A DNA stretch of 54,111 nucleotides from Pyrinomonadaceae bacterium (GTDB lineage: Bacteria; Acidobacteriota; Blastocatellia; Pyrinomonadales; Pyrinomonadaceae), in NCBI GenBank assembly GCA_013811945.1, contig JACCUI010000225.1:1-54111 (forward strand), written 5' to 3'. The first letter of the stretch is position 1; every line of letters begins with the position of its first letter. Positions 17,875-43,698 of this stretch are shown one piece after another. Below the pieces are notes generated by a model, which did not search any database, was not told the DNA's origin, and worked only from the letters and a program-made list of their open reading frames with translations. The position numbers and the translations under genes were made by a program.

Positions 17875-17959
17875 CACAAACACGATCCACGAAATCACAC
17901 GAACTGGTACTAACAGGATTTCGTGTTGGTTCGAGTAATTTCGTGGATCGTGTTTGACG
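17875..17959. repeat. Family 2 inverted repeat (TTTCGTGGATCG type), copy 1
   Basis: Outer arms ACACGATCCACGAAATCACA and the facing TTTCGTGGATCGTGTTTG enclose inner arms of the ACTAACA / TGTTGGT type. In this copy the order of arm blocks is inverted compared with copies near 39.1 and 39.7 kb. There, the TTCGTGTTG block is outermost. Confidence 0.75.
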
Positions 17960-19446: not shown

Positions 19447-19530
19447 TGTGCGGCTTCGTGTGATTTCGTGGATCGAGTTTTCTGCGGACGACGGCGATCC
19501 ACGAAGTCATACGAAAATCACGAAACTCAA
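19447..19530. repeat. Family 2 inverted repeat, copy 2
   Basis: Left arm GCTTCGTGTGATTTCGTGGAT (19454 onward) faces a degenerate right arm CGATCCACGAAGTCATACG. It occupies the gap between the small 73-residue gene and the DUF420 gene. Confidence 0.7.
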
Positions 19531-34157: not shown

Positions 34158-34255
34158 GTTTCGTGATTTTTCGTGTGATTTCGCGGATCGTGGTAGGTCC
34201 CGCAGCAAACTACAAACGATCCACGAAATCACACTAAGCCGCACGAAAAACACAC
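34158..34255. repeat. Family 2 inverted repeat, copy 4
   Basis: TTTTCGTGTGATTTCGCGG in the left arm faces CGATCCACGAAATCACAC and GCACGAAAAAC in the right arm. It lies in the 490-bp gap separating the b6-like and subunit-IV genes, which is otherwise gene-free. Confidence 0.8.
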
Positions 34256-36633: not shown

Positions 36634-36750
36634 AGCTCCTTTTAGGAGCGAAATGTGTTCTTCGGAGCCCCCCGGTCACATTGCGCTCCTACGGAGCTGG
36701 CCTGCACATGGCCAATCGGGTGCTTATAGACATCTCGCTCCGATGGAGCG
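36634..36750. repeat. GCTCC/GGAGCG repeat cluster (family 3) at the 3' end of the bchH N-terminal ORF
   Basis: Short hairpins repeat here: GCTCCTTTTAGGAGC near 36634, GCTCCTACGGAGC near 36685 and TCGCTCCGATGGAGCGA near 36735, with ATGT/TTATAG words beside them. The same style returns at 49.9-50.0 kb. The TTATAG at 36724 is read on the minus strand as the TAA stop of the chelatase ORF. Confidence 0.65.
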
Positions 36751-39042
36751 AAGGCGTGAATCCGCAAAATTCAAACTCCGGCTGGACTCCTCGATTGCGT
36801 CAAACAATCTCGCTCGCTCGCGCTCGTCAGTTGTCTGCCGGTAAGCCAACAACAATTCTTTTAGCGAAGCCAATTCCCGGTAGAGTCCCGCATTTTCCAT
36901 GGGTGGCGTCAGATAAGAAATTAGTTCAGCGTAGGAGCGACGTTTGGCGATTGAACCTTCCGAAGGGTTGTTGACGCTGTAGATGTAGATGTTTGGCAGT
37001 TCGCCCACGAGTCTGTCCGGCCAGCACGCCCCGGAAAGTCCCACTTGCTTGCCAGGCATGAATTCCAGCGCACCGTGGGTACCAACGTGAACTACCGCAT
37101 CCACGTTGAGCAAGCTTGAGAGATAAGTATAGAAAGCCATGAACCCATGATGCGGCGCACCGCCGCGAGCCATCATCAATCGCATCGGGTCGCCTTCGTA
37201 CCCAAACGTCGGCTGCACTCCGATAAATAGTTTGCCCAGCGTGAGTCCCTGAATCAGCAACTCGTTTCCAAACGAATTGATTCTGCCGGGCGCCGTTCCC
37301 CACTCGGGCTCAATCTCATCCACATAAGGACAGAGTCGACGATATTCGTCGGCGTCCATTCGATAGGCAACATTAGCCGTCGCTCCAAAAATCTCAGAGT
37401 TCCCACCAAGCAGTCTCTCCCGCAATTCTTCCGATGAGCGAGGGAGTTCCACATCGTAGCCGTCCGCCTTCAATCTCCTAAGTGCGTCCCAAACGCTGGG
37501 GAAGACATCCAGATCAGCCGCGGTTCCGATGTTGCCCTTATTCGGCGGAAAGCAAAATAGGACCAGGGCGAGCTTGAGTTCGCTGCGAGGCGCCCGGCGC
37601 AGACGGTTTGCGCGCCGCAATCGTCGCGCAAGACGTTGGCAGCGATCTTCCAAAGCCACCGGTTCAACGTCCTTTGCTGAAATGCCGCCATAGACAAAGG
37701 GTTCAGTGGCTCCATCGATCTCGGGAATGGCGATCTGCATTCCTGCTTGAATCGGATTCAATCCCGTAAGCGACTCATTCCAGGCTTCAATACTCTGGGT
37801 ATCCAAACTAACCGCGGATCGATAAGGACGATTTAAGTTGGTCAGAAACGCCGAAGCTGCCAGGCTGTCGTTCATCGCCGGTCCGCCCACAAAGCTGAAA
37901 CCAGTGAGTGAGACAATCTGGCTGACGCGCGATTGCTGTTTGTCCGTGGTCAGTTGTCCTTTGTCAGTTGCTTGGATGTTTGACGTTGGACGTTGGACTT
38001 TGGACTTTGGACTCGGGCTAGTGTCTATGAAGAATTTCTGACACGCTTCCCGGTTATCCATGAGCGTCGAGATTGCTGGGATGACACTCAAGCCTTCGCC
38101 CTCGATTGCATGAATAAGTGCGTCGTAATGCTTCGTTGTTTTGCTGACGACCTGCGGCCGCATTAGAAGCAGGCCTACTGTTGATTCAGCATCGAGAGGT
38201 ATTTGCTTCGACTTTGAACTTTGGACTTTGGACTTTGGCATTCGCCCGGAGTACCACTTTCGATATGCCTCGAACGTCTCAAAGAGTTTTGGGGCATCCG
38301 GATGATAGATCGCGACCGAGGGCATAGCTTCAGGCGCTGGAATATCAATTTTCAGTTTGCGCAATCGTTCATGTGGCACGTAGTGCTTCAGCGCGAACAG
38401 AATCATCGAGCGAATGTTGCGAGGCGTAGGTTGCAGGAAATAGCAGAAGAGGTAGAGGTAGTTTTTGACGTCACGGAGTCTTCCTGCTGTAGGCACGAAC
38501 CTGAGAATGTTTGGCAATTTATCGACCAGCTTCAGGTATTGCCCGTGCCCACGTCGCCGCTTGTTAGAATCACCGCTGGAACCATTTCCGCGCGCCTGTC
38601 TGCTAATCCATGAGCCAGCGGTGCCCAAGAGTCGCACGACGCGCCCAAATGTTCTTTGCTCCCCTTCTCCCTTTCTCCCCTTCTCATTGTACGTGGAATC
38701 GTTTCCGAAAAACCTGCCGAAATCCAAGCTCCCCATGCGCGTGCTTCGCATCAATTCCGGCATGCAGTTGATGACGACTACGGCGTGATGGCGTTCTCTG
38801 TAACGTTCAAGAGCAGGAACCAGCCGCGCAGCGTTCTCGCCATCCATGACGTGAATAACAACTACGATATCCGACACGGCGAGATCGTGATCGACCGCGC
38901 CCCACTCGAGTTGATCTAGCGGCGAGCCGAAGTTGTAGGCAGCCACACGCAGGTCGAGCTTGTATTCACGATTGATCTCCCGCTCCGCATTCTTGAGCGG
39001 CGCCAGCAGACTAGAACCCACGTAGAGAACCGTTACCTGCAC
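36724..39042 (-). CDS. bchH: Magnesium chelatase large subunit (BchH/ChlH type), N-terminal half
   Basis: 772 residues starting at GTG after GGAGGAG. It begins with the N-terminal domain typical of BchH/ChlH, and not of CobN (AVSDIVVVIHVMDGENAARL, INCMPELMRSTRMG). It then follows the family through FVPTAGRLRDVKNYLYLF, SLTGFSFVGGPAMND, NIGTAADLDVFPSVW, GVQPTFGYEGDPMRLM, VHVGTHGALEFMPGKQVG and NNPSEGSIAKRRSYAELISY. It stops after DAIEESSRSLNFA, about the middle of the ~1200-1300-residue family. Two repeat-derived, in-frame insertions lie at about residues 268-279 and 344-369, and the final ~12 residues plus stop come from a repeat. The C-terminal half is encoded separately and upstream. Confidence 0.88.
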   Translation of the reverse strand: MQVTVLYVGSSLLAPLKNAEREINREYKLDLRVAAYNFGSPLDQLEWGAVDHDLAVSDIVVVIHVMDGENAARLVPALERYRERHHAVVVINCMPELMRSTRMGSLDFGRFFGNDSTYNEKGRKGEGEQRTFGRVVRLLGTAGSWISRQARGNGSSGDSNKRRRGHGQYLKLVDKLPNILRFVPTAGRLRDVKNYLYLFCYFLQPTPRNIRSMILFALKHYVPHERLRKLKIDIPAPEAMPSVAIYHPDAPKLFETFEAYRKWYSGRMPKSKVQSSKSKQIPLDAESTVGLLLMRPQVVSKTTKHYDALIHAIEGEGLSVIPAISTLMDNREACQKFFIDTSPSPKSKVQRPTSNIQATDKGQLTTDKQQSRVSQIVSLTGFSFVGGPAMNDSLAASAFLTNLNRPYRSAVSLDTQSIEAWNESLTGLNPIQAGMQIAIPEIDGATEPFVYGGISAKDVEPVALEDRCQRLARRLRRANRLRRAPRSELKLALVLFCFPPNKGNIGTAADLDVFPSVWDALRRLKADGYDVELPRSSEELRERLLGGNSEIFGATANVAYRMDADEYRRLCPYVDEIEPEWGTAPGRINSFGNELLIQGLTLGKLFIGVQPTFGYEGDPMRLMMARGGAPHHGFMAFYTYLSSLLNVDAVVHVGTHGALEFMPGKQVGLSGACWPDRLVGELPNIYIYSVNNPSEGSIAKRRSYAELISYLTPPMENAGLYRELASLKELLLAYRQTTDERERARLFDAIEESSRSLNFADSRLRSIGARCL
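37939..38014. repeat. In-frame TTTGGAC / GTCAGTTGT repeat run inside bchH-N (first block)
   Basis: The plus strand reads GTCAGTTGTCCTTTGTCAG, then TTGGACGTTGGACTTTGG heptamers. On the coding strand this is translated as a hydrophilic Lys/Gln/Thr-rich stretch (residues ~344-369). It contains no stop, so the length kept the frame. Confidence 0.75.
38209..38240. repeat. In-frame TTTGGAC heptamer run inside bchH-N (second block)
   Basis: ACTTTGAACTTTGGACTTTG and one more heptamer give a ~12-residue insert (PKSKVQSSKSK, about residues 268-279). The same heptamer appears in the first block. Confidence 0.75.
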
Positions 39043-39108
39043 TTCACTCCTCCAATCTTTATGCTATCGAGTTCTTAACCCTAACCGTAGTAACAGGCAT
39101 TTGTTCTC

Positions 39109-39199
39109 TTATTCGTGTTGCTTCGTGTGATTTCGTGGATCGTTCGTTTCCACTGAAAATACATACGATCCACGAAATAGCACGAAACAACACGAAAAG
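39109..39199. repeat. Family 2 inverted repeat, copy 5 (left flank of GxxExxY gene)
   Basis: TTCGTGTTGCTTCGTGTGAT then TTCGTGGATCG in the left arm face CGATCCACGAAATAGCACG and AACAACACGAAAAG in the right arm. The loop contains CACTGAAAATACATA. It is highly similar to the copy at 39.65-39.75 kb. Confidence 0.85.
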
Positions 39200-39232
39200 A
39201 GTGGCCGCCGTTGTCGGATTTTGATTCGCGGA

Positions 39233-39610
39233 TCAGATTATGTACCTTTTCCACTCGAGCGTTACTTGGCTGCCAAAGTTGATCAATAGGCCGACTCTCA
39301 TACGGGTCATTTTCAGATAGTTAAGCAGTTGCGCTTCGTCTATTCCGGTTAGTCGATCGAGTGCTTTGAGTTCAACAACGATCTGGCTGAAGCAAACCAA
39401 GTCCGCAACATATTTCTTCTCCAGCGGCTGACCTTTATACTCAATTGTCAGCTCGGCCTGAGGCTCAAACGGCAACCCTCTTTTACTTAGTTCGATCTCG
39501 AATGCCTCCTGGTAGAGCGGTTCGAGAAATCCGCGGCCAAGCTGATAGTAAACCTCCATCGCTGCGCCTATAACTTCATAAACTTCTTCCTTGAGGACTA
39601 ATTCGGCCAT
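39233..39610 (-). CDS. GxxExxY family protein (PD-(D/E)XK-like nuclease fold)
   Basis: 125 residues, full length for the family. The name-giving motif is GFLEPLY, preceded by EVIGAAMEVYYQLGRG. A candidate PD-(D/E)XK metal site is in YVADLVCFSQIVVELKAL (Asp, then Glu-x-Lys). Its biological role is not established; a relation to nucleases is by fold only. It has a strong AAGGAGG site and is bracketed by two copies of a ~95-bp inverted repeat, as in a mobile cassette. It lies between the two halves of the chelatase large subunit. Confidence 0.87.
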   Translation of the reverse strand: MAELVLKEEVYEVIGAAMEVYYQLGRGFLEPLYQEAFEIELSKRGLPFEPQAELTIEYKGQPLEKKYVADLVCFSQIVVELKALDRLTGIDEAQLLNYLKMTRMRVGLLINFGSQVTLEWKRYII

Positions 39611-39648
39611 GAGGATGCCTCCTTAGGGTTGGATTCTTATTTGGATCT

Positions 39649-39745
39649 CTTATTTCGTGTTGGTTCGTGTGATTTCGTGGATGGTTGTAGTTTTCCGCTC
39701 CAGGCACGAACGATCCACGAAACTACACGAACCAACACTAAAAGC
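39649..39745. repeat. Family 2 inverted repeat, copy 6 (right flank of GxxExxY gene)
   Basis: TTCGTGTTGGTTCGTGTGAT and TTCGTGGATG face CGATCCACGAAACTACACG and AACCAACACTAAAAG. It lies immediately upstream of the GxxExxY gene and ends about 19 bp from the stop of the bchH C-terminal ORF. Confidence 0.85.
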
Positions 39746-39763
39746 TTTCTTCCAACAACTGAC

Positions 39764-41512
39764 TTAAGCCACACCCTCGATTTGGTCTTCGAGACTACCG
39801 CTGATCTCGCGGAGCTGATCCATGAGTTTTACATCAGCGTCCCAGTAGCCGCGTCCGTGGGCTTCAAGCAAGCGGCCGACCAATGAATGTACGGAATGCG
39901 GATTGAGAGTGCGCAGGCGCTCGAGCATTGCTTCGTCAAGCACAAACGTTTGTGCGACTTCTGTGTATATCCAATCGTCAACTGCGTCCGCGGTCGCGCT
40001 CCAGCCGAAAGTATTCGAAACGTGGCTCTCTATTTCGGCGACTCCGCGGAATCCATGATTCAACATCCCCTCGTACCATTTCGGGTTGAGCGTCTTCGCG
40101 CGTGATTCCAGCCGCACCGTCTCCTCCAGTGATCTGATTCTGGCATCACGCGAAAGAGAGTCCGAGAGGTAGATTGAGGGCCGCGCCTGGGCGCGCGTCT
40201 CGACGGCTTTTGAAATTCCGCCAAGATACTCGAAGTAATGATCGACATCCGTAATCCCAATCTCAAAAGTGTCGATGTTCTGGTAGGTGGCTTCAACCCG
40301 CCCCAGAGCTTGATCCAGCGCAACTCGGGCTTCACGTCCTTCAACCGCGCGTCCCTGGGAGTCTCGGCCGTAAGCAAAGCACTTGCGGGTCACAAACAGA
40401 TCCCCAAGCGTCTCGTCGCGGTCCCACTGCGAATCCATCACCATGAAGTTGACGTTAGTCCCGTAGTTGCCGGGCGCGTTGGAAAACACACGGGCCACGG
40501 CATCGTCAAGTGGGCAGACTTCGTTGCGCACTTGTTCCATCACATGTCGCCGCAAATAATTCATTTCCGGTGGCTCGTCTAGCTGGGCAACGAGTCGAAC
40601 AGCTTTGTCGAGCAGCAACACAGTCGGACTAAACAAATCGCGGAAGATTCCGGAGATCGTCATGACCACGTCAATCCGCGGTCGTTTCAATTCCTCAAGC
40701 GGTATCGCTTCCACTTCCGTAACCCGGTTCAGGGCATCGCGCACTGGACGTACACCCAGCAACCACAATGCCTGGGCCACTCCTTCACCCTGAGTCTTGA
40801 TGTTATCCAGACCCCACAACACCAACGCTATTGCCCCGGGGTAGCGTCCGTTCTCGGCCAGGTAACGTTCGAGTAAACTCCAGGCAACTGCTTCGGCGCG
40901 GGCAAAAGCCATAATCGAAGGGATGGTGTAAGGATTAACCGCGTGAGTGTTTCTTCCGGTTGGAAGGATTGCAGGGTTTTGAACGATGTCGGCGCCTGGA
41001 CCGGGTGCGATGAACTCACCGCGCAACGCGCGAAGCAGAGCTTCGATTTCGTTGTTGGTCTCGAGTTGCTTAGATATCTCCTCCAGCAGCGCGAACACCG
41101 GCAGCGAATCCTGACGTTTAATCTTGGAGGTACGCTCCAGCAAAGATGCTGCGACCTCAGAACCGGCCTCGAGAAACTCCCTAATCGCCGCGGCGACTAC
41201 GCTATCAATCCGCTCCCGGTCCGACAACCGCGCCTGGTCCAACGATGCGGACTTGAACAGTGCGTCATAACTTCCGAGGCCGAGGTTCTCGCTCACCAGA
41301 TCGGGCAACGCGCGTACACCCGCCTCGGGCCGGTCAAACGAAGCAATCATTCTGAGCATGTCCGCTCGCTCAGCGTCTTCAGACGGACGTCCAAACACAT
41401 GTAAGCCGGTCGGTATCAGCCGCTGCTCGACTTCAATCAGTTGATCGTAAAGGTCAAGCACACGCCGATCGCGTTGAGCTTCCATCAGTGTTTTGTAAGG
41501 TTGACTCGACAT
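39764..41512 (-). CDS. bchH: Magnesium chelatase large subunit (BchH/ChlH type), C-terminal half
   Basis: About 582 residues from the ATG at 41512 (a TTG at 41527 is possible). It begins where family members continue after the midpoint (DLYDQLIEVEQRLIPTGLHVFG). It retains the rest: PGPGADIVQNPAILPTGRN, LVLWGLDNIKTQGEGVAQAL, IDVVMTISGIFRDLF, RVFSNAPGNYGTNVNFMV, FEIGITDVDHYFEYLGGISK, LNPKWYEGMLNHGFRGVAEI and the DQIEGVA C terminus. It therefore complements bchH-N exactly. It lies 38 bp after the fused I/D gene on the same strand and has only a weak ribosome binding site. Confidence 0.88.
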   Translation of the reverse strand: MSSQPYKTLMEAQRDRRVLDLYDQLIEVEQRLIPTGLHVFGRPSEDAERADMLRMIASFDRPEAGVRALPDLVSENLGLGSYDALFKSASLDQARLSDRERIDSVVAAAIREFLEAGSEVAASLLERTSKIKRQDSLPVFALLEEISKQLETNNEIEALLRALRGEFIAPGPGADIVQNPAILPTGRNTHAVNPYTIPSIMAFARAEAVAWSLLERYLAENGRYPGAIALVLWGLDNIKTQGEGVAQALWLLGVRPVRDALNRVTEVEAIPLEELKRPRIDVVMTISGIFRDLFSPTVLLLDKAVRLVAQLDEPPEMNYLRRHVMEQVRNEVCPLDDAVARVFSNAPGNYGTNVNFMVMDSQWDRDETLGDLFVTRKCFAYGRDSQGRAVEGREARVALDQALGRVEATYQNIDTFEIGITDVDHYFEYLGGISKAVETRAQARPSIYLSDSLSRDARIRSLEETVRLESRAKTLNPKWYEGMLNHGFRGVAEIESHVSNTFGWSATADAVDDWIYTEVAQTFVLDEAMLERLRTLNPHSVHSLVGRLLEAHGRGYWDADVKLMDQLREISGSLEDQIEGVA

Positions 41513-41550
41513 TTGGCGTATGACCAAAACCCCGGCAGTGGCGCCGGCGT

Positions 41551-43698
41551 CTACATACTCTGCATACCCTGTTTGACGGTTAGGTAGTTCGAACCCAATT
41601 TCTCTGCCAGGGCGCGAGCATCACCGTTTGAGACAAATTGGTTGTGACTGTCAACGACAAAGATTCTTACCCCGGCCTTACCTAACGCTGAACCCAAGCC
41701 CTCTAACTCTCTCTCGATCGTTGCCTTACGTTCGGGTCGCGGTGCACTTCCTTTTGATCCGGCTGCTACATTCGCGTTGCCGTCGGTGAAGACCAAAAGA
41801 AAGACCTCACTTTCGCTTCGATCTCGTTTTGCTATTTCGAGGGAGCGAATCAGGCCGGCGGTAAGTGGCGTTCCTCCACCGACCCGTAAAGAATCGAGAA
41901 CTCGCCGGGCGCGGAGCATGCTTTTTGACGGCGTTAACAGCACTTCCGCGGATGTACCGCGAAACCCTACGATCGCCACTCGGTCACGCTTAATGTATGA
42001 CTGCTTCAGTAGGCTGAGCGCAGCTACTTTCGCCTGTCGGATGCGGTTGATTGCCATACTTCCTGAGGCGTCTATCGCGAAAATGAAAAGTCGTCCGTTC
42101 TTTCGGCTCAGTTGCTTGTAACGGAGATCGGGTATCTGCAGGCGGGTGTCAGATGCCGGAAAGTTAAAGGGTCTGGCGCCCGGCAGGCGGTACCCGGTAC
42201 CTGCCGCCGCCCGCAAAGTAGCATCTATTGCTATTCTTTTGCCCTCTCCCTTAAAGCTAACTGCGTGCGCATACCTTCCCTGTTGGGCGCCGTAGCAGAT
42301 TCGTTTCGATCCTGAGTCGCTCCTGCTGTTTAGTTTACCTTCTTTGGATTGGCGTCGCGCTTCTCCCGACCGCTCACTAAACCCGAACCTAGCCAACTCC
42401 ATACCAGGAGCCGAAGCTAGCGAGGGCACTTGGGGAGAATCGAAGCCCCGAGACCCATTCGGATCTGTTGATTCAGCACGCGAACCAGAGGACTTGGCAG
42501 CGCTTCGACTGCGAGATTCACTCGCCGAGTTCTGCGTGGAGGATCTAGCTTCGTCACCTTGCCCACCACTGCTTGATCCAGCCTCACGCTTCTGCGGCCG
42601 TTCGTCGAACACCTTTTCCAACGCTCGTTGAATTCGCTCGGTGCCGGCACGTTCTTCGAGCGGGTCTCTCCGCAGCCGGTGTCGTAAGGCCATTGGTGTC
42701 ACGCGACGAACATCGGCTGCCGTAACTTTTTTGCGGCCCTCGAATGCCGCCAGCGCACGTCCGGCTCGAGTGATGGCCAACTCACCGCGGTGTCCGTCGA
42801 TCTTCAGCTCAGTGCAAAGCTGCGCAACCTGACGCAACAATGGACGTTCGACTATGACTGAGTCCGAGTTCTTCTGCGCCCGAGTGATCCTGTTTCGAAG
42901 TTGCTCCTGATCCTGTGCCAGGTTGGCGCAGAACTCCTCCGGACCACGCTCGAAGGCGTTGCAGCGTTCGACAATGTCGACTCGCCGATCGAGATCGTCG
43001 TCTGTTGTCACCTCCACGTGCAGCCCAAACCGATCCACCAGCTGGGGACGCAACTCTCCCTCTTCGGGGTTTCCGGAGCCAACCAGTACGAAGCGGGCCG
43101 GGTGTTGGATCGAAATGCCCTCTCGCTCCACTTTGTTCACACCCGTTACCGCTACATCAAGCAAAACGTCAACCAGGTGGTCGTCGAGAAGATTGACCTC
43201 GTCGATGTAGAGAAGCCCACGGTTCGCTCGGGCCAGTAGTCCCGGCTCAAATGTTTTTGTGCCCTGCTGAAGAGCCCGTTCGATATCGATGGTTCCACAC
43301 ACACGATCTTCGGTGGCGCCGAGCGGAAGATCCACGACGGCCACAGAGGTTAGTTCAGCCTCCAGCCGTTCGCCGCCGTCCAACTTCTTTTGACACTCGG
43401 CGCAAAGGTTACTTCCGCTTGGATCGCAGCGATATGCGCAGCCTGCAACAACCTTGATTTCGGGTAACAGCTCAGCCAGGCCTCGCACTGCAGTAGATTT
43501 GCCGGTCCCACGATGTCCCATTATGAGCACGCCGCCAATCGATGGATCGACAGCGTTCAGCATAAGCGCGAGCTTCATTTCTTCCTGCCCGACGACTGCC
43601 GAGAATGGGAACTGATGAGGCGCGGAGGATTTGGCGGGGTGCACCTTTCCCGTTTTGGAAGAATTGGTTGACTGGAGGCGTGGGGTGCGTTTCTTCAT
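41551..43698 (-). CDS. bchD: Fused magnesium chelatase I/D subunit (AAA+ plus VWA)
   Basis: 715 residues combining an N-terminal BchI-type AAA+ ATPase and a C-terminal VWA domain, joined by a Ser/Arg/Gly-rich acidic linker (about 370-480). Walker A is GHRGTGKST, and Walker B lies near LLYIDEVNLL. The I-subunit cysteine insert (CDPSGSNLCAEC) and sensor arginines are present. The VWA metal site (MIDAS) is DASGSM. Fused I/D proteins energise metal insertion by the large subunit into porphyrin or, in some lineages, corrin substrates. It lies just upstream of the C-terminal half of the large subunit. Confidence 0.9.
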   Translation of the reverse strand: MKKRTPRLQSTNSSKTGKVHPAKSSAPHQFPFSAVVGQEEMKLALMLNAVDPSIGGVLIMGHRGTGKSTAVRGLAELLPEIKVVAGCAYRCDPSGSNLCAECQKKLDGGERLEAELTSVAVVDLPLGATEDRVCGTIDIERALQQGTKTFEPGLLARANRGLLYIDEVNLLDDHLVDVLLDVAVTGVNKVEREGISIQHPARFVLVGSGNPEEGELRPQLVDRFGLHVEVTTDDDLDRRVDIVERCNAFERGPEEFCANLAQDQEQLRNRITRAQKNSDSVIVERPLLRQVAQLCTELKIDGHRGELAITRAGRALAAFEGRKKVTAADVRRVTPMALRHRLRRDPLEERAGTERIQRALEKVFDERPQKREAGSSSGGQGDEARSSTQNSASESRSRSAAKSSGSRAESTDPNGSRGFDSPQVPSLASAPGMELARFGFSERSGEARRQSKEGKLNSRSDSGSKRICYGAQQGRYAHAVSFKGEGKRIAIDATLRAAAGTGYRLPGARPFNFPASDTRLQIPDLRYKQLSRKNGRLFIFAIDASGSMAINRIRQAKVAALSLLKQSYIKRDRVAIVGFRGTSAEVLLTPSKSMLRARRVLDSLRVGGGTPLTAGLIRSLEIAKRDRSESEVFLLVFTDGNANVAAGSKGSAPRPERKATIERELEGLGSALGKAGVRIFVVDSHNQFVSNGDARALAEKLGSNYLTVKQGMQSM

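Follow-up and report, generated by a model that had tools for sequence, protein, structure and literature searches.

A BchH/ChlH-type chelatase large subunit encoded as two genes in swapped order in Acidobacteriota

In a 54,111-nucleotide (nt) stretch of DNA from a Pyrinomonadaceae bacterium (i.e., the window; contig JACCUI010000225.1 of assembly GCA_013811945.1), the large subunit (H) of a class I chelatase of the BchH/ChlH type is encoded by two open reading frames (ORFs) in reversed order on the minus strand. In phototrophs, BchH/ChlH is a giant protein that inserts the metal at the start of chlorophyll synthesis. The best explanation overall, which we consider probable, is a two-chain, order-swapped BchH-type subunit that catalyzes a mostly I/D-driven insertion of metal into a porphyrin. 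Upon re-reading, the initial annotation proved correct in assigning the two ORFs to positions 36724-41512, in describing a GGAGGAG site belonging to the N-terminal half (N half), and in placing the C-terminal half (C half) after a fused I/D gene. The features are as follows.

36724-39042, minus strand: N-terminal half of the BchH/ChlH-type large subunit, 772 amino acids, GTG start
39047-39053, minus strand: GGAGGAG, resembling a Shine-Dalgarno site, 4 nt upstream of the N-half GTG (direct sequence reading)
39764-41512, minus strand: C-terminal half of the BchH/ChlH-type large subunit, 582 amino acids, from ATG
41551-43698, minus strand: fused chelatase I/D (AAA+ plus VWA), 715 amino acids; 503 bits with TIGR02030 (cut-off, 467)

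The C-half ORF is extendable upstream to a TTG at 41527, and the fused I/D subunit is likely the ATPase motor. Read along the minus strand, I/D comes first, followed by the C half, an ORF for a GxxExxY protein, and the N half.

The two ORFs jointly cover the family, the N half spanning positions 18-710 and the C half positions 715-1310 of PRK12493, both far beyond chance. The halves abut, and no segment is lost between them. The N half matches PF11965 and positions 3-539 of PF02514 (E = 2.7e-151), and the C half matches positions 550-1086 of PF02514 (E = 2.8e-183); in the alignment with 4zhj, they correspond to residues 180-745 and 759-1350, respectively. Concatenation of the halves in the canonical order gives 1468 bits with PRK12493 (cut-off, 1300) and 1369 bits with TIGR02025 (cut-off, 829), while the score with PRK13405 (1164.5) is narrowly under the cut-off of 1166. 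The joined halves are under the cut-off of all CobN models (best score, 641 bits versus 1468; TIGR02257, 604 versus a cut-off of 822). The assignment of both ORFs to the BchH/ChlH family in the initial annotation thus stands. Since each half alone is under the PRK12493 and TIGR02025 cut-offs, automatic annotation may misname the halves. The window's own genome contains no further PF02514 match and so no second large subunit.

The split and the reversed order are shared by relatives. We compared 59 genomes, including the window's own, and named the best 80 of 578 confirmed loci (genomes and loci are numbered with G and L, respectively). PF02514 matches were found in 33 of the 59 genomes. Three Chloracidobacterium-like genomes (a group named from BchM matches and approximately 90% identity to named Chloracidobacterium loci) carry a full-length large-subunit gene, and the remaining PF02514-bearing genomes with enough sequence carry two halves with an identical break position. 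Mapping of the gene order placed the C half before the N half in 43 of 43 distinct linked loci, one of which lies on a complete 5.1-Mb chromosome (OX638355.1). The halves overlap in nine of these loci (by exactly 4 bp in seven) and are spaced 0-100 bp apart in 21; the overlaps suggest that two separate products are made with coupled translation. In G043 and G051, which are two species of one genus, each half is located on its own contig, several kilobases of further genes follow the C half, and the gene context around each half is shared, so that the halves can be independent genes. At three loci (L065, L071, and L075), the frame is open past the C-half stop into the N half, with a single stop codon between the genes, and read-through would yield a permuted fusion.

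An assembly error or a decaying pseudogene might be suspected from the origin of the window, a 67%-complete metagenome-assembled genome of 300 contigs, and from the stops or frameshifts in the N half of a few relatives. However, independent assemblies, one of them a complete chromosome, show the identical order in 43 loci, which indicates that the arrangement is not a misassembly. The ratio of nonsynonymous to synonymous substitution rates (Ka/Ks), calculated against relatives, ranges from 0.08 to 0.16 in the N half and from 0.05 to 0.14 in the C half, and both halves are under purifying selection. Assembly error and decay are thus already refuted at the family level, and we assign them next to no probability. 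These results uphold the claims of a split large subunit in reversed order and, together with the catalytic residues kept in both ORFs, of function instead of decay.

The two chains appear to contribute to one active site. According to a study of Synechocystis ChlH, the catalytic residues H621, E660, and H1174 are essential, and E625 is a channel residue that is strictly conserved (PMC13297055). The equivalents of H621, E625, and E660 are H656, E660, and E695 in the N half of the window, and the equivalent of H1174 is H425 in the C half; all four are kept in every permuted pair covering the sites. Judging from this alignment, neither chain alone would be able to form the known pocket, the residues of which are divided between the chains. 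AlphaFold models of the halves (mean predicted local distance difference test scores, 74 and 77) have ChlH as their best PDB matches. The N-half model ends with helices followed by a low-confidence tail, and the C-half model begins with a low-confidence tail followed by a helix, so the modeled break falls between helices, in a flexible stretch. C-terminal fragments of ChlH have been crystallized on their own (6ys9 and 5ewu). As a model, the assembly of the two polypeptides into one large subunit is well supported.

Split inteins and RNA trans-splicing are known for split genes elsewhere, and such precedents would allow the halves to be rejoined after expression. We regard this as highly improbable here, however: the N half ends approximately 12 residues past the homology and the C half starts approximately 10 residues before it, leaving no space for a split intein; there is no Rfam match; and in many relatives the genes overlap or lie almost end to end.

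All permuted loci among the best 80 of the 578 belong to Acidobacteriota (i.e., Blastocatellia, Pyrinomonadaceae, Bryobacterales, and records titled Terriglobia or Acidobacteria). The genes of Chlorobi, Chloroflexi, Proteobacteria, and Chloracidobacterium among those 80 loci are single ORFs, except for L129, an interrupted Chlorobiaceae gene that keeps the canonical order. In a tree of 59 rows, the 26 permuted pairs form one clade (Shimodaira-Hasegawa-like approximate likelihood ratio test [SH-aLRT] support, 100; stem length, 0.79) inside the BchH/ChlH part, with the CobN-like rows, which have long branches, outside. The split arrangement thus arose once in the sampled set, while the deeper placement of the clade among the BchH proteins of phototrophs is not firm. 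The BchH of Chloracidobacterium (L082 and L101) shares the phylum and the BchH type with the split form and is approximately 48% identical to the C half and 38% identical to the N half of the window, but it is encoded by one ORF, and its host is a chlorophototroph. Descent of the split form from Chloracidobacterium bchH, tested as a grouping of Chloracidobacterium BchH alone with the split clade, was rejected by the approximately unbiased (AU) test (P = 0.004; the long branches call for caution); the intact bchH of these relatives therefore belongs to a different lineage and does not make the split an artifact.

On the basis of these data, we propose that a single rearrangement event in Acidobacteriota severed the large subunit of a BchH-type class I chelatase between two helices, in the stretch equivalent to residues 725-739 of Synechocystis ChlH, and brought the C-terminal part in front of the N-terminal one. 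This order would result if the gene was duplicated in tandem and the first copy then lost its N half and the second its C half; no intermediate of this route was seen among the sampled loci. The two genes would yield two polypeptides that assemble noncovalently into one large subunit, whose composite tetrapyrrole pocket would combine H621, E625, and E660 of the N chain with H1174 of the C chain. In most species, a fused or separate I/D AAA+ motor would drive the split subunit, as in Mg-chelatase, while in a subclade that lost I/D the subunit would have to work without the motor. Most likely, the reaction inserts a divalent metal (probably Mg) into a porphyrin (we infer metal, substrate, and direction), and heme and cytochrome genes surround the locus. 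The literature titles, abstracts, and passages covered contained no mention of BchH in split or permuted form, which is no proof of novelty. Programmed frameshifting of chlD and rearrangements of chelatase genes are comparable as unusual encodings of chelatase subunits, and they likewise include I/D proteins in organisms without known pathways; however, those cases concern the I/D side, and the available passages of that study mention no split or permuted H (PMC9227772).

The split chelatase is an orphan enzyme, without a known chlorophyll or B12 pathway. BchM was above the cut-off in no split-bearing genome of the 59 (only the three Chloracidobacterium-like genomes passed), and none of 11 further genomes with the split form had BchL above its cut-off, with positive phototroph controls. 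CbiC, a marker of the corrin ring pathway, was found in 0 of the 59 relatives and 0 of the 11 further genomes, with positive controls. It is therefore very unlikely that the enzyme is a vitamin B12 cobaltochelatase, a label that a CobN and I/D pair may receive in automatic annotation. Such an enzyme would fit the 664 bits of the fused I/D protein with TIGR02442 (putative cobaltochelatase; a score under the cut-off of 779), and the split form shares the superfamily and overall architecture of CobN (PDB 7c6o and 9uk9). Yet it lies below the CobN cut-offs, lacks CbiC in its genomes, and has H at ChlH position 1174, as in BchH, where seven of nine CobN-like rows have D. By comparison, it resembles BchH/ChlH (TIGR02025 and PRK12493; PDB 4zhj and 6ysg) in joined-sequence score, fold, catalytic residues, and the adjacent I/D gene of the window, while differing in its two polypeptides, swapped gene order, lack of a chlorophyll pathway, and absence of I/D in one subclade. 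In Chloracidobacterium-like genomes, a full-length bchH is accompanied by another large subunit (loci L083 [G045:C2] and L003-L005), which is CobN-like, has D at ChlH 1174, and occurs although CbiC is absent there.

Replacement of ferrochelatase was rejected as a role, since HemH is present alongside the split chelatase in most genomes, including that of the window. A ChdC-family gene occurs in the window's genome and in most tested Pyrinomonadaceae, and it is absent from the tested f2 genomes. Positions 22889-52065 of the window form a large respiratory island that contains genes for COX1, CtaA, a UbiA-family protein (possibly CtaB), a multiheme cytochrome, and a split cytochrome b with Rieske protein, and that continues on the other strand with genes for CcmB, a CcmC-like protein, CcmF, and a CcmH-type tetratricopeptide repeat protein. 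The Rieske/cytochrome b and Ccm neighbors recur in relatives. Conserved neighbors without a Pfam match gave no functional lead, and several resemble spurious antisense ORFs.

Across the 59 genomes, 30 carry both I/D and H, 24 carry neither, two carry I/D only (both 78% complete), and three carry H only, as tallied by hand from two tables. I/D thus accompanies H in 30 of the 33 H-bearing relatives, and it is present in the window. No real I/D match was found in G003 and G011 (H only; 97-98% complete), G418 (96% complete), G443, or G444. The I/D-less members in the tree (L151, L152, L157, and L161) form one supported clade, in which the pocket residues and purifying selection are retained. The C-terminal ED-(Q)-(L/I)-EGV end, which may contact I/D, is eroded in four of five I/D-less members (G003, G011, G418, L157, and L161).

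Several of these observations weigh against I/D-driven metal insertion. The retention of H without I/D in this subclade fits poorly with an I/D-driven chelatase there. No downstream Mg-porphyrin enzyme was found (BchM in 59 genomes and BchL in 11), so that it is kinship in sequence only that points to Mg as the metal. The ChdC-family gene may mean that protoporphyrin IX is neither the substrate nor an intermediate in ChdC-bearing genomes, membership in the ChdC family alone being no proof of the coproporphyrin route. The chief rival, particularly in the case of the I/D-less subclade, is that the two-chain protein would be a demetalase or tetrapyrrole carrier that handles or removes metal in heme-type porphyrins, with I/D as an accessory that one lineage could drop. 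Its model would be HmuS (PDB 9d26 and 9p4s), a homologous heme dechelatase of the class I chelatase superfamily that acts without ChlI/D according to passages of its description (PMC12583661), as the I/D-less subclade would need. Such a role would suit the occurrence of H without I/D in a clade of genomes that are 96-98% complete where known and keep an intact pocket and selection, the absent chlorophyll and B12 markers, the heme and cytochrome surroundings, and a ChdC-family gene in those genomes. On the other hand, sequence and tree place the split form in BchH/ChlH rather than near HmuS-type behavior, and I/D is retained beside H in 30 of 33 relatives. The same passages describe HmuS as one membrane-anchored chain with a methionine-rich insertion, encoded in an hmu operon (PMC12583661), and the split form is much less similar to it in sequence than to ChlH structures. 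Inspection of the aligned halves revealed no methionine-rich insertion (HmuS domain IV), and the breakpoint does not apparently coincide with that insertion, as compared by published residue numbers only. We consider a demetalase or carrier possible but rather unlikely, and our confidence in it overlaps with that in the best explanation, because both share the two-chain model. More broadly, we lean slightly toward the view that non-phototrophic Acidobacteriota may use a two-chain BchH-type enzyme of swapped gene order for an undescribed tetrapyrrole metalation or demetalation that is unrelated to chlorophyll and B12 and has become I/D-independent in one lineage.

The split subunit is a natural dissection of a chelatase of roughly 150 kDa, of whose full complex no structure exists according to passages of PMC13297055. 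Since the catalytic residues are divided between the halves, the enzyme could be dismantled and rebuilt. The I/D-less lineage poses the question of the role of an H subunit without its motor, and the orphan status points to a new porphyrin product or heme-handling step. Given this status, bchH-like genes alone are unreadable as a marker of phototrophy.

Between the two halves, the window contains the following additional features.

39112-39196: palindromic repeat I3, on the N-half side of the GxxExxY gene; arms of 32 nt, 91% complementary
39233-39610, minus strand: GxxExxY protein (PDDEXK_3), 125 amino acids; 140 bits with TIGR04256
39653-39742: palindromic repeat I2, on the C-half side of the GxxExxY gene; arms of 34 nt, 88% complementary

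The GxxExxY gene was rejected as a chelatase partner, since it separates the halves in just five of the 43 linked loci (the window, 39233-39610; L061:2727-3101; L119:7881-8258; L157:7235-7621; and L161:7926-8291) and looks like a local insertion. It is probably not part of the chelatase and represents either a recurrent insertion at the junction or an old one that was repeatedly lost. The palindromic repeat, with the core CACGAAATCACACGAA, occurs in 11 copies in the window, in facing pairs, versus 0.07 expected; other copies are located at 17888-17945, 19455-19515, and 34170-34237. It looks like a repetitive extragenic palindromic (REP)-type element.
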